Positions 21,707 through 26,801 of a DNA stretch of 64,000 nucleotides are shown piece after piece. Origin of the DNA: Collinsella tanakaei (GTDB lineage: Bacteria; Actinomycetota; Coriobacteriia; Coriobacteriales; Coriobacteriaceae); the NCBI RefSeq assembly GCF_030373545.1, contig NZ_JAUDCO010000004.1:124001-188000 (forward strand), given 5' to 3'. The notes under the pieces were generated by a model, which made no database searches, had not been told where the DNA came from, and saw only the letters and a list, made by a program, of their open reading frames with translations. Within the stretch, counting starts at the first letter, position 1. Each line of letters starts with the position of its first letter. A program made the translations under genes and the position numbers.

Positions 21707-21767
21707 GGGAAAATGGTGCCTGTCCCCTTTTTCCCACGGGAAAAAGGGGACAGGCACCATTTTCCCA
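21707..21767. repeat. REP-like perfect palindrome (GTGCCTGTCCCC type)
   Basis: GGGAAAATGGTGCCTGTCCCC... (21707-21735) pairs perfectly with 21738-21767. The core GTGCCTGTCCCC resembles REP sequences associated with REP-associated (TnpA-REP) transposases in other bacteria; no such transposase is in this window. A fragment recurs at 25585-25613 between leuD and leuB. Confidence 0.75.
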
Positions 21768-21793: not shown

Positions 21794-21837
21794 TTGCATG
21801 GACGCTTTAGTTTGCTACACTGCATTACATTGCAGTG
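21794..21837 (+). promoter_or_regulatory. leu operon promoter with overlapping dyad
   Basis: TTGCAT (21794-21799), 16-base spacer, TACACT (21816-21821). A perfect dyad CACTGCATTACATTGCAGTG (21818-21837) overlaps the -10 and probable start site, a plausible repressor operator. Confidence 0.6.
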
Positions 21838-21877
21838 GCGGCCCGCATCGGGTCGCGTGCACGAAAGGACGGAACGC

Positions 21878-21979
21878 ATGGCGCGCAGGGCGTACAGCAC
21901 ATCCAAGCAGGCCGAGACGGCCGCTTTCGGCATGTCGCTGAACCTAACCCTAGCGCTACTAGCCGCCGATGCGCGCTAG
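21878..21979 (+). CDS. leuL: Leucine-rich leader peptide of the leu operon
   Basis: 33 codons plus TAG, starting at ATG 21878 behind AAAGGACGG. The C-terminal part reads SLNLTLALLAADAR. Five Leu codons occur within eight positions and four of them are CTA, which is rare in this GC-rich genome where CTG/CTC dominate. The Leu codons lie in the left arm of a hairpin that overlaps the stop codon. A second, terminator-like hairpin follows before leuA. This is the classic layout of transcription attenuation: stalling at CTA codons when Leu-tRNA is short would melt the first hairpin. Inferred from sequence only. Confidence 0.8.
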   Translation: MARRAYSTSKQAETAAFGMSLNLTLALLAADAR

Positions 21980-22081
21980 GGTTCTTCGTTCCACGTACGG
22001 CTCAAGCCAACTTTCCAGAAGCACCCCAACCGCGCATCTGACCGACGCCTTGCAGGGCGTGACGCGCGACGGGGTGCTTTA
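21946..22081 (+). promoter_or_regulatory. leu attenuator hairpins
   Basis: Hairpin A: AACCCTAGCGC (21946-21956, inside the Leu codons) pairs with GCGCTAGGGTT (21973-21983). Hairpin B: AAGCACCCC (22019-22027) pairs with GGGGTGCTT (22071-22079), with inner stems CGCGC/GCGCG and ACGCC/GGCGT and only a short T run. Which one terminates, and the alternative pairings, need folding. Confidence 0.65.
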
Positions 22082-22163
22082 ATCCGTAGATCTGCAAAAC
22101 GGCAACGCCACCTCCTGCAAGCCCGACACGCAACGACCACGTCACGAGCTACAGGAGGACCCC

Positions 22164-23699
22164 ATGACCAGGAAGATCGCCATCTTCGACACCACCCTGC
22201 GCGACGGCGAGCAGTCGCCCGGCGCAAGCATGAACACTGAGGAAAAGCTCATCATCGCCCGCCAGCTCATCCGCATGAACGTCGATGTCATCGAGGCGGG
22301 CTTTCCCATCTCGAGCCCGGGCGACTTCAAGAGCGTGGCCGAGATCGGCCGTATCGCGGGCGACAAGTGCACCGTCTGCGGCCTGACGCGCGCCGTCGAC
22401 AAGGATATCGAGGTCGCGGCCGAGGCGCTCAAGACCGCCAAGCGTCCGCGCATCCACACCGGCCTGGGCGTATCGCCTTCGCATCTGCGCGATAAGCTCC
22501 GCCTGACCGAAGACCAGACCATCGAGCGCGCCATCCATGCGGTCAAGCTCGCCCGCAACTTCGTGGACGACGTCGAGTTCTACGCCGAGGACGCGGGCCG
22601 CGCCGACCAGGATTTCCTCGTTCGCATCATCGAGGCCGCCGTCAAGGCGGGCGCCACAGTCGTCAACATCCCCGACACCACGGGTTACAACATGCCGTGG
22701 GAGTTCGGCGCGCGCATCCGCGACCTGCGCGAGCGCGTCGATGGCATCGAGGGCGTGACCATCTCGGTCCATACGCATAACGACCTGGGCATGGCAACCG
22801 CCCTTGCGCTCGAGAGCGTCCGCAACGGCGCCACGCAGATCGAGTGCACCATCAACGGCCTGGGCGAGCGCGCCGGCAACACCTCGCTCGAGGAAGTCGT
22901 CATGGCCATCCGCATGCACGAGGCCGAGCTCGATGCGCACACCGACATCGTCACCAAGGAACTGTGCCACGCCAGCAAGCTCGTGAGCTCCATCACCGGC
23001 ATCATGGTTCAGCCCAACAAGGCCATCGTGGGCGCCAACGCTTTCGCGCACTCCTCGGGCATCCACCAGGACGGCGTGCTCAAGGCCCGCGACACCTACG
23101 AGATCATCGATCCGGCCGACGTGGGCGCTGCCGGCTCCCAGATCATCCTGTCGGCCCGCTCCGGTCACGCCGCGCTGCGCCATCGCATGGCAGAGCTCGG
23201 CTACACCTTCAACGACGAGGAGTTCGAGAATATCTATCAGGCCTTCCTCGAGGTGGCCGACAAGAAGAAGGAAGTCTACGACGAGGACCTGGAGTCCATC
23301 GTGCACGAGCGCGAGCGCGTGAGCTCGGCCATCTGGACGCTCGGTGCGGTGCAGGTCTCCTGCGGCTTCCCGCTCACCCCGACCGCGACGCTCACGCTGG
23401 TGGACGAGGACGGCGAGGAACACACCGTCGCTGCGTACGGCACCGGTCCGGTGGACGCCGTCTACAAGGCGGTCGACCAGATCGTGGCGGTGGAGAACGA
23501 CCTGTCCGAGTTCTCGATCAAGTCCATCACGCGCGGCATCGACGCGCTGGGCGAGGTGACGGTGCGCGTGACGGCCGCCAGCGGCGAGGTCTACATCGGC
23601 CGTGGCAGCGATAACGACATCATCGTGTCCTCCACCAAGGCCTACATCAATGCGCTGAACCGTCTGATTTCCGATCAGCGCGAGGCGGCTTCCAAGTAA
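22164..23699 (+). CDS. leuA: 2-isopropylmalate synthase
   Basis: 511 residues. [16 protein letters not shown] near the start, [11 protein letters not shown] with the metal-binding His pair, and NGLGERAGN are diagnostic. The last about 120 residues form the LeuA allosteric (leucine-binding) domain. It condenses acetyl-CoA with 2-oxoisovalerate, the committed step to leucine. SD ACAGGAGG. First gene of leuA-C-D-B, downstream of the leader peptide. Feedback by leucine is expected from the intact regulatory domain. Confidence 0.96.
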
Positions 23700-23757: not shown

Positions 23758-25023
23758 ATGCCAAGACCCATGACCGTCGCCGAGAAGATCCTGGCCGCCC
23801 ACGCGGGCCTCGACGAGGTGCGCCCCGGCCAGCTCGTCGAATGCGACCTCGACATCGTGCTCGCCAACGACATCACGGCGCCCATCGCCATCGATGTGTT
23901 CCATGAGCTCGGTGCGACCGAGGTGTTCGATCGCGACCGCATCTGCCTCGTGCCCGACCACTATGCGCCCAACAAGGACATCAAGAGCGCCGAGCAGACC
24001 AAGAAGATGCGCGAGTTTGCCCACGAGCAGAAGATCACCCATTACTGGGAGCAGGGCTGTGCCGGCATCGAGCACGCGCTGCTGCCCGAGACGGGCACCG
24101 TCGTGCCGGGCGACCTGATCATCGGTGCCGACTCGCACACCTGCACCTACGGTGCACTGGGCGCCTTCTCCACCGGCGTGGGCTCCACCGACGCGGGCGT
24201 GGGCCTGGCCATCGGCCGCTGCTGGTTCAAGGTTCCGCCGACCATCAAGTTCGTGATCGACGGCGAGCTGACCGACGGCGCGTCGGCCAAGGACGTCATC
24301 CTGCACATCATCGGTATGATCGGCGTGGACGGCGCGCTGTATCAGGCCATGGAGTTCACGGGCTCGGCCATTCACAGCATGTCGATGGAGGGTCGCATGA
24401 CCATCTCCAACATGGCGATCGAGGCGGGCGGCAAGGCCGGCATCATGGAGGTCGACGATGTGACCCGCGCGTGGCTCGAGGGCCGCAACCAGCGCGACTA
24501 CGTCGAGTACCACGCCGACCCGGACGCCGAGTACGCCCAGGTCATCCATATCGACGCCGCCGACATCAAGCCGTGCGTGGCCTGGCCGCATCTGCCGGGC
24601 AATACCCATCCGGTGAGCGAGAGCCGCGATATCACGATCGATCAGGCCGTCATCGGCAGCTGCACCAATGGCCGCATCGAGGATATGCGCGCCGCCGCCG
24701 AGGTGCTGCGCGGTCGCACGATCAACCCCAACGTGCGCTGCATCGTGATCCCCGCGACGCAGGCGGTCTTCAAGCAGTGCATGGCCGAGGGCCTGGCCGA
24801 CATCTTCATCGATGCCGGCTGCGTGTTCTCGACGCCGACGTGCGGCCCGTGCCTGGGCGGCTACATGGGCATCCTGGCCGCCGGCGAGCGCTGCGTGTCC
24901 ACCACGAACCGCAACTTCGTCGGCCGCATGGGCGATCCGACCTCCGAGGTCTACCTGGCGAGTCCGGCCGTCGCTGCGGCAAGTGCCGTGGCCGGCCACA
25001 TCGCCGCTCCGTCCGACCTGTAA
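23758..25023 (+). CDS. leuC: 3-isopropylmalate dehydratase large subunit
   Basis: 421 residues, the shorter archaeal/clostridial LeuC type. Seen: DSHTCTYGALGAF, IGSCTNGRIEDMRAA and CGPCLGG, giving the three Cys ligands of the 4Fe-4S cluster. With LeuD it isomerises 2- to 3-isopropylmalate. SD AAGGAG. The short two-subunit form could in principle take related substrates, but its place in the leu operon argues for LeuC. Confidence 0.95.
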   Translation: MPRPMTVAEKILAAHAGLDEVRPGQLVECDLDIVLANDITAPIAIDVFHELGATEVFDRDRICLVPDHYAPNKDIKSAEQTKKMREFAHEQKITHYWEQGCAGIEHALLPETGTVVPGDLIIGADSHTCTYGALGAFSTGVGSTDAGVGLAIGRCWFKVPPTIKFVIDGELTDGASAKDVILHIIGMIGVDGALYQAMEFTGSAIHSMSMEGRMTISNMAIEAGGKAGIMEVDDVTRAWLEGRNQRDYVEYHADPDAEYAQVIHIDAADIKPCVAWPHLPGNTHPVSESRDITIDQAVIGSCTNGRIEDMRAAAEVLRGRTINPNVRCIVIPATQAVFKQCMAEGLADIFIDAGCVFSTPTCGPCLGGYMGILAAGERCVSTTNRNFVGRMGDPTSEVYLASPAVAAASAVAGHIAAPSDL

Positions 25024-25098
25024 TCCACACCGTCTGACATGCGCCCTGACAATGCGGTACGTCCCTTGTCAGGATCGAACACCGAGAAAGGAAAGCCC

Positions 25099-25593
25099 AT
25101 GCATTTCGAAGGCACCGCGTTCCGTTACGGACGCGATATCGATACCGACGTCATCATCCCCGCGCGCTATCTCAACAGCTCCGATCCGGCCTACCTGGCA
25201 TCGCACTGCCTGGAGGATCTGGACGATACGTTTGTGGAGCGCATGAAGCCTGGTGACATCATCGTCGCCGAGGAGAACTTCGGCTGCGGCTCCAGCCGCG
25301 AGCACGCGCCGCTTGCCATCAAGTCGGCCGGCGTGTCCTGCGTGATCGCCAAGAGCTTCGCGCGCATCTTCTACCGCAACGCCATCGACATCGGCCTGCC
25401 GATCCTCGAGTGCTCCGAGGCGGTCGACGCCATCGCGGACGGCGCACAGGTTTCCGTGGATACCGATACCGGCACGATCACGAACGTCGACACGGGCGAG
25501 ACCTTCGCCTCCGAGCCGTTCCCGCCCTTCATCGCCGAGATCATCGAGGCGGGCGGTATCGTCAACCGCACCAAAAAGAACCTGGGAAAATAG
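25099..25593 (+). CDS. leuD: 3-isopropylmalate dehydratase small subunit
   Basis: 164 residues: [23 protein letters not shown] at the start (first 20 residues shown by the family pattern [14 protein letters not shown]) and the swivel-domain motif [12 protein letters not shown]. It is the small partner of LeuC. ATG 25099 follows GAAAGGAAAG. The upstream in-frame ATG at 25039 has no SD and no conserved residues. Confidence 0.94.
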
Positions 25594-25613
25594 GGACAGG
25601 CACTTTTTCCCAT
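25585..25613. repeat. Fragment of the REP-like GGGACAGGCAC palindrome
   Basis: GGGAAAATAGGGACAGGCAC TTTTTCCC straddles the leuD stop codon and resembles a shortened half of the 21707-21767 element. The arms GGGAAAA/TTTTTCCC can pair. Confidence 0.6.
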
Positions 25614-25688
25614 GGCGGAAGGAGGGTTGCTGTGCCCCTCGACAACCCGTTTGCATCTGGTCCGAGTTCGATGAGTTGGAGTTGCAAC

Positions 25689-26801
25689 GTGAAGAAGACC
25701 TATACCATCTGCTGCCTGCCGGGCGACTGCATCGGCCCCGAGATCATGGCGGAGGGCAAGAAGGTGCTCGCCGCCGTGGGCAAGCGCTTCGGATGCGCGT
25801 TTGAGTGCAACGACGCGTTGATCGGCGGCGCCGCCATCGATGCGACTGGCACCGCGCTGCCCGACGAGACGCTCGAGGCCGCGCGCGCCTCGGACGCCGT
25901 GCTGCTGGCGGCGGTGGGCGGCCCCAAGTGGGACACCACCGACCCCGCGGCGCCCCGCCCCGAGCAGGGCTTGCTCAAGATTCGCAAGGAGCTCGGTCTG
26001 TACACCAACCTGCGCCCCGTGCAGATCTTCTCCGCCCTGGCCGGCGCTTCGACGCTCAAGCCCGAGGTCATCGACGGCGTGGACATGATGATCGTGCGCG
26101 AGCTCACCGGCGGCCTGTACTTCGGCGTCCGCGAGCGCTTCTATGACGAGGAGGGCGCCGGCACCGATGGCAAGCCCGGCCAGCGCGCTTACGATACGCT
26201 CGAGTACCGCGAATACGAGATCGAGCGCATCGCCCGTCAGGCCTTCGAGGCGGCCCGCAAGCGCCGCGGCAAGGTGGCGAGCGTGGACAAGGCCAACGTG
26301 CTCGAGACGAGCCGTATGTGGCGCGAGATCGTCCATCGCGTGCACGATGCCGACTACGCCGACGTTGAGCTCGAGGACGTCCTCGTGGACAACGCCGCCA
26401 TGCAGCTCATCAACCGCCCGGCCGACTTCGATGTCGTGGTGACCGAGAACATGTTCGGCGACATCCTGTCCGACGAGGCGGCGCAGATCACCGGGTCGCT
26501 CGGCATGCTCGCGAGCGCGAGTTTGGGCGACGGCGTGGCGCTCTTCGAGCCGAGCCACGGCAGCGCACCGGATATCGCCGGCAAGGGCATCGCCAACCCG
26601 CTGGCGCAGATCCTGTCTGTCGAGATGATGCTGCGCTACAGCCTCGATATGGGCGATGCCGCCGACGCCATCCGCGCCGCGGTGACCGCCGTGCTCGACG
26701 ACGGGCTGCGCACGCGCGACATCGCCGATGCCTCGACGCCTGCCGACAAGATCCTCGGCACGGCCGCGATGGGCGATGCCGTGGTGGCGCGCCTGCAGTA
26801 G
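25689..26801 (+). CDS. leuB: 3-isopropylmalate dehydrogenase
   Basis: 370 residues from GTG 25689. Family motifs: [31 protein letters not shown] and the Asp-rich [19 protein letters not shown], then [14 protein letters not shown]. It oxidises and decarboxylates 3-isopropylmalate with NAD. The start is uncertain. GTG 25689 gives the family length with GGAG eight bases upstream. ATG 25671 lacks an SD. GTG 25632 has the best SD (GGAAGGAGGG) but would add 19 non-conserved residues. The usual Gly in LPGDGIGPE is Cys here. Confidence 0.93.

Follow-up and report, generated by a model that had tools for sequence, protein, structure and literature searches.

The leu locus and its leader

The stretch of DNA analysed here, hereafter the window, spans 64,000 nucleotides and carries leuA, leuC, leuD and leuB in this order 3' of a short leader ORF, with an opposite-strand gene for a PLP-dependent aldolase upstream of the leader (Table 1). 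The closest named protein to the encoded LeuA is that of Collinsella tanakaei ET10 (99%); by this match the genome, called Coriobacteriia-like in a preceding sequence-only reading, does belong to the Coriobacteriia and is of Collinsella type. A strict sigma-70 scan gave no match for a leuA promoter. Of 27 relatives examined, most carry TGCTACACT, the extended -10 element of the likely promoter, or a close variant of it in the corresponding position.

Two inverted repeats lie close by. A 26-bp repeat read by eye at 21710-21763 (AAAATGGTGCCTGTCCCCTTTTTCCC / GGGAAAAAGGGGACAGGCACCATTTT, 2-nt loop) lies between the aldolase gene and the leuA promoter, and a similar word, GGGGACAGGCACC, upstream of leuA in the relative L015 suggests that it belongs to a dispersed repeat. 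The other, CACTGCA-N6-TGCAGTG at 21818-21837, overlaps the -10 box, and many relatives share its right half (ATGCAGTG). It is a possible operator; as the operator of a regulon it was rejected, the genome holding a single perfect copy and near matches that do not outnumber those of a reversed control.

Table 1. Positions of the leader elements and leu genes in the window
Feature	Position	Strand	Remarks
Likely promoter	21794-21821	+	weak -35 (CTTGCA/TTGCAT); extended -10 TGCTACACT at 21813-21821
Shine-Dalgarno (SD) of leader ORF	21864-21869	+	AAAGGA; purine-rich SD before the ATG in most relatives
Leader peptide ORF	21878-21979	+	ATG to TAG (21977-21979), 33 codons, peptide MARRAYSTSKQAETAAFGMSLNLTLALLAADAR; present in 26/26 distinct relatives
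Hairpin 1:2, putative protector of region 2	21946-21983	+	arms 21946-21956 AACCCUAGCGC and 21973-21983 GCGCUAGGGUU
Region 2, antiterminator 5' half	21968-21987	+	includes last three leader codons and stop; GAUGCGCG..GGGU.CUUC
Region 3	22018-22038	+	alternative partners: region 2 (antiterminator), region 4 (terminator); GAAG.ACCC..CGCGCAUC
Predicted terminator hairpin 3:4	22018-22080	+	GAAGCACCCC..GGGGUGCUUU; short U-rich tail CUUUAAUCC
Apical hairpin of terminator	22045-22060	+	ACGCC-UUGCAG-GGCGU
Apical 5' arm and loop	22049-22056		CUUGCAGG; alternative pairing with anti-SD segment (helix X)
Anti-SD segment	22109-22122	+	CACCUCCUGCAAGC; conserved island in a variable stretch
SD of leuA	22152-22158	+	CAGGAGG
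leuA, 2-isopropylmalate synthase	22164-23699	+	NCBIfam TIGR00973/NF002086
leuC	23758-25023		3' of leuA; NCBIfam TIGR02083
leuD	25096-25593		longest ORF from 25039; NCBIfam TIGR02084 just below cut-off, TIGR02087 above
leuB	within 25566-26801		NCBIfam TIGR00169

Leader ORF and leucine codons

The sequence-only reading had pointed to a 33-codon ORF with an SD and five Leu codons, four of them the rare CTA. Its coordinates and codons are confirmed (CTG at 21938; CTA at 21944, 21950, 21956 and 21959), and CTA is indeed rare, accounting for 13 of 1201 Leu codons (1.1%) in the 33 long ORFs of the window; given this usage, at least four CTA among five Leu codons would arise by chance with p of about 7e-8. 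The bias extends to relatives, where CTA makes up 102 of the 136 Leu codons (75%) within the last 18 codons of 26 distinct leaders. The peptides range from 17 to 39 residues, with one longer depending on the chosen start. The expectation that the CTA-rich peptide would be conserved thus held for the Leu codons, found in all 26 distinct leaders together with the RNA, and failed for the N-terminus, which diverges. On this reading the C-terminal residues are kept because their codons build region 2 of the RNA. The placement of the CTA codons inside the left arm of the first hairpin needs correction: CTA 21950-21952 lies wholly within the arm, and the others straddle it or fall in the loop.

Competing helices in the leader RNA

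The 336-nt leader (21828-22163) folds better than 100 of 100 shuffles (z -3.7), with z -3.8 for the subregion 21935-22085. Of the two hairpins seen in the initial reading, the second, ahead of leuA, is predicted at 22018-22080. Hairpin 1:2 is the least conserved helix (74.6% of cells paired), retained by most Collinsella and by genus g3 and largely lost in several other lineages. What the initial reading lacked is an antiterminator helix, 21968-21987 with 22018-22038, which competes with both hairpins and makes the element an attenuator rather than two hairpins.

Comparative evidence supports both alternatives; as the compared leaders are related, its shuffle counts are not to be read as probabilities. 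In the antiterminator 89.5% of cells are paired, and covariation reaches 0.181 compared with 0.115 after shuffling (0/500) and at most 0.090 in slid controls. Compensatory changes are exemplified by GATACGCG/CGCGTATC in L035, GATAGCGC/GCGCTATC-type pairs in L011 and L015, and GGTACGTG/CGCGTACC in L049. When region 3 is taken from other species, the duplex weakens from -25.5 (own partner) to -22.2 kcal/mol, and 0 of 5000 permutations reach the observed value. For the terminator 91.7% of cells are paired, eight pairs show double changes, and the covariation of 0.208 against 0.130 is a score that none of 500 shuffles attains. The tail CUUUAAUCC is weak in the window, where a strict terminator scan gave no report; in relatives the tails hold 4-7 T in 10, a count that includes two to four stem bases, over a background of 15%.

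Folding with competing structures, the check proposed at the outset, gave the outcome expected of an attenuator: the antiterminator with a ribosome stalled at CTA, the terminator without a ribosome or with one at the stop. In growing transcripts starting at 21966, which mimic a ribosome stalled at the first CTAs, the antiterminator is predicted at every tested length from 22035 to 22078, and the terminator is preferred solely at full length to 22085. Transcripts starting at 21993 (ribosome at the stop codon), or free of a ribosome, are predicted to form the terminator. Usual ribosome footprints leave region 2 open with the A site at 21944 or 21950 and cover it with the A site at the stop.

An anti-SD segment near leuA

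The functional region does not end at 22081, where the sequence-only reading had closed it, and continues to the leuA SD at 22158. Within the anti-SD segment, CCUCCUG (22111-22117) is complementary to the leuA SD and CCUGCAAG (22114-22121) to 22049-22056 in the apical hairpin of the terminator; the two pairings are mutually exclusive. The pairing between loop and anti-SD segment is found in 93.6% of cells, with covariation of 0.209 compared with 0.143 after shuffling. Compensatory changes turn U-A into A-U in L009 and L035 and into G-C in L010, and L015 carries a rebuilt helix. Own partners score -15.6 kcal/mol and exchanged ones -13.1 (0/5000 permutations). The pairing of the segment with the SD itself is out of reach of covariation, as the leuA SD hardly varies. 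A pseudoknot reading of the loop pairing was replaced by helix X because the pairing reaches into the 5' arm of the apical hairpin, with up to 11 bp (L010, L114).

As long as the SD has yet to be transcribed, co-transcriptional folding is predicted to favour helix X in the antiterminated RNA of all 26 species (mean 0.82); as a nested helix it is excluded by the terminator fold. At equilibrium with the SD present, the antiterminated state is predicted to expose the SD more in 11 species and less in three (Wilcoxon p 0.006, the species not being independent). In the window's own RNA the leuA SD is predicted to be hidden in both states at equilibrium, and a translational tier would therefore depend here on the order of folding. 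Conservation, covariation and predicted folding support such a second tier as a proposal, whose chances we put at about even.

Distribution among relatives

Within the family leuA is present in 31 of 67 genomes, within the order in 272 of 399. Searched with a covariance model built on 25 leaders, each of the 31 family genomes with leuA yields one copy of the element, always at leuA, along with weak opposite-strand matches that overlap the same hairpin. In the 36 family genomes without leuA the model finds none beyond one 24-bit match (G058). Across the order it also matches the leuA leaders of two genomes of another family, G125 (E 1e-10) and G126 (E 9e-9). By inspection, more genomes of that family have Leu-rich leaders upstream of leuA, many ending in GCGCGC-TAG and some with strong U-tails. 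Atopobiaceae-type versions include clear tails such as CGCGCGCUUUUUU (L124, L125). Among leaders of this type, about nine of 20 show a stop-codon region whose downstream pairing exceeds that of shuffles (Stouffer z -5.4, the sequences not being independent), and the claim of an attenuator is therefore weaker there. No such leader was seen in the Eggerthellaceae-type (f4) genomes examined.

In G003:C11 and G037:C4 (leaders L015 and L016) leuA is a broken remnant, with a match to residues 2-192 only and an in-frame TGA, and leader and RNA helices are intact; there the attenuator outlives its gene. The leader L028 (CASELS010000016.1) lacks both the anti-SD segment and the distal arm of the terminator, reflecting an internal deletion or an assembly gap, and its close relative L029 differs from it.

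Proposed mechanism and alternative explanations

Considering sequence comparison and folding models together, we infer with high confidence a leucine-responsive, ribosome-mediated transcription attenuator of leuACDB, in which the ORF would be translated, transcription would terminate ahead of leuA, and the system would respond to leucine. The Leu codons in 26 distinct leaders and the covarying RNA switch support the leucine attenuator of the sequence-only reading. With ample charged Leu-tRNA for CUA, the leader ribosome would reach the UAG stop and cover region 2 (21968-21987); region 3 would then pair with region 4, and RNA polymerase would stop close to 22080, at the U-rich tail. Under a shortage of charged Leu-tRNA, the ribosome would stall on the CTA codons at 21944-21961 and leave region 2 free to pair with region 3, and transcription would continue into leuA. 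If the leader is untranslated, hairpin 1:2 would protect the terminator. As a second tier, the apical arm and loop (22046-22056) of antiterminated RNA may bind the anti-SD segment at 22114-22121, so that the leuA SD stays open, and in terminator-folded readthrough RNA the segment may pair with the SD and silence leuA.

Several other explanations deserve weighing. GC-rich sequence folds readily and short ORFs are many, but a chance ORF beside chance hairpins is contradicted by conservation and covariation and is hardly credible. It is also very improbable that the ORF is untranslated and the structures form a riboswitch, a T-box or a protein-bound RNA. For the LEU element of other Actinobacteria, a protein ligand has been put forward (PMC1262725). 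However, the 75% CTA bias and the retention of SD and start codon are hard to account for if the ORF is untranslated, and Rfam, its T-box and enterobacterial leu leader families included, gave no covariance-model match at the gathering score or up to E 5, on which a T-box, riboswitch or known Rfam leader was rejected. Control of translation initiation alone is more plausible than these and still unlikely: here the 3:4 hairpin would not terminate, and translation of the leader would decide whether the leuA SD is hidden, as proposed for the LEU element. The weak U-tail of the window and the conservation of the anti-SD segment and helix X speak for such control, as do other actinobacterial leuA leaders without a typical terminator (PMC8079986, PMC1262725). 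Against it stand the strong covariation of the 3:4 hairpin and the U-rich tails behind it in relatives, with clear examples in some Atopobiaceae-type versions.

The more evenly balanced question concerns what accompanies the same attenuator. It could act without a second tier, the anti-SD segment and helix X having no switching role and leuA translation being unregulated, a serious contender to which we give slightly less than an even chance. This would agree with the SD predicted to be hidden in both states in the window. It accounts less well for the anti-SD segment as a conserved island that covaries with the terminator loop, and for the CCU ahead of its loop-pairing part, which is mostly kept though needed for SD pairing only. 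A two-tier attenuator, in which one leader ribosome would set both transcription and translation and leaked transcripts would stay silent, stands at even odds in our estimate.

Leucine synthesis is patchy in this group, as the occurrence of leuA shows, and its control is therefore relevant to how far these bacteria depend on nutrients in the gut. The switch should also be easily transplanted into reporters.

Comparison with known leader systems

A search for literature on leader peptides or leuA attenuators of Collinsella, Coriobacteriia or Coriobacteriaceae, with most subscription journals outside its reach, found nothing relevant. For the related ilv genes, no second leader peptide upstream of ilvB was found by eye, the ORF before ilvB resembling ilvD. 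In the same genome (G000), a T-box match below threshold (24.3 bits, E 0.002, against a gathering score of 93) lies at 1391-1491 of L160 (G000:C19, about 184390-184490), upstream of an ilvD-like ORF, and the ilv and leu branches may use different tRNA-sensing RNAs.

The attenuator of the enterobacterial leu operon, which serves the same pathway as leuACDB, likewise alternates between antiterminator and terminator. It also shares a leader peptide with rare CUA control codons (leuL; Carter et al., cited in PMC1183508), and in Salmonella, according to the same text, CUA is the control codon and its replacement lowered sensitivity. In contrast to leuL, the present leader encodes a different peptide, its last codons and stop form region 2, and an extra anti-SD segment lies near leuA.

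Another known system is the actinobacterial LEU element of Seliverstov et al. (2005), for which pairing of the Leu codon run with the leuA SD is described, and no obvious terminator (PMC1262725). Both systems place a leader ORF with a Leu codon run directly upstream of leuA and involve the leuA SD in a structure; the present leader differs in its separate SD-pairing segment, its CTA codons and its predicted terminator/antiterminator pair. Here the leuA SD is predicted to pair with the anti-SD segment at a dG of -15.6 and with the Leu codon run at -7.9 in a broken helix, so the pairing of Leu run and SD that is central to the LEU element is not found, and membership was rejected. Leu-rich leader peptides also precede leuA in Corynebacterium glutamicum (PMC4046766) and in Streptomyces lividans, where LeuL1 is leaderless and has no typical terminator (PMC8079986). 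Unlike LeuL1, the ORF described here has an SD and is followed by a conserved predicted terminator.

An analogy for two-tier control is the trp leader of Bacillus subtilis, in which transcription attenuation by TRAP is backed by hiding of an SD in readthrough RNA. Its sensor is a protein, a role that would fall to the leader ribosome in the present case. Should the second tier be real, a single stalled ribosome would govern both termination and initiation.
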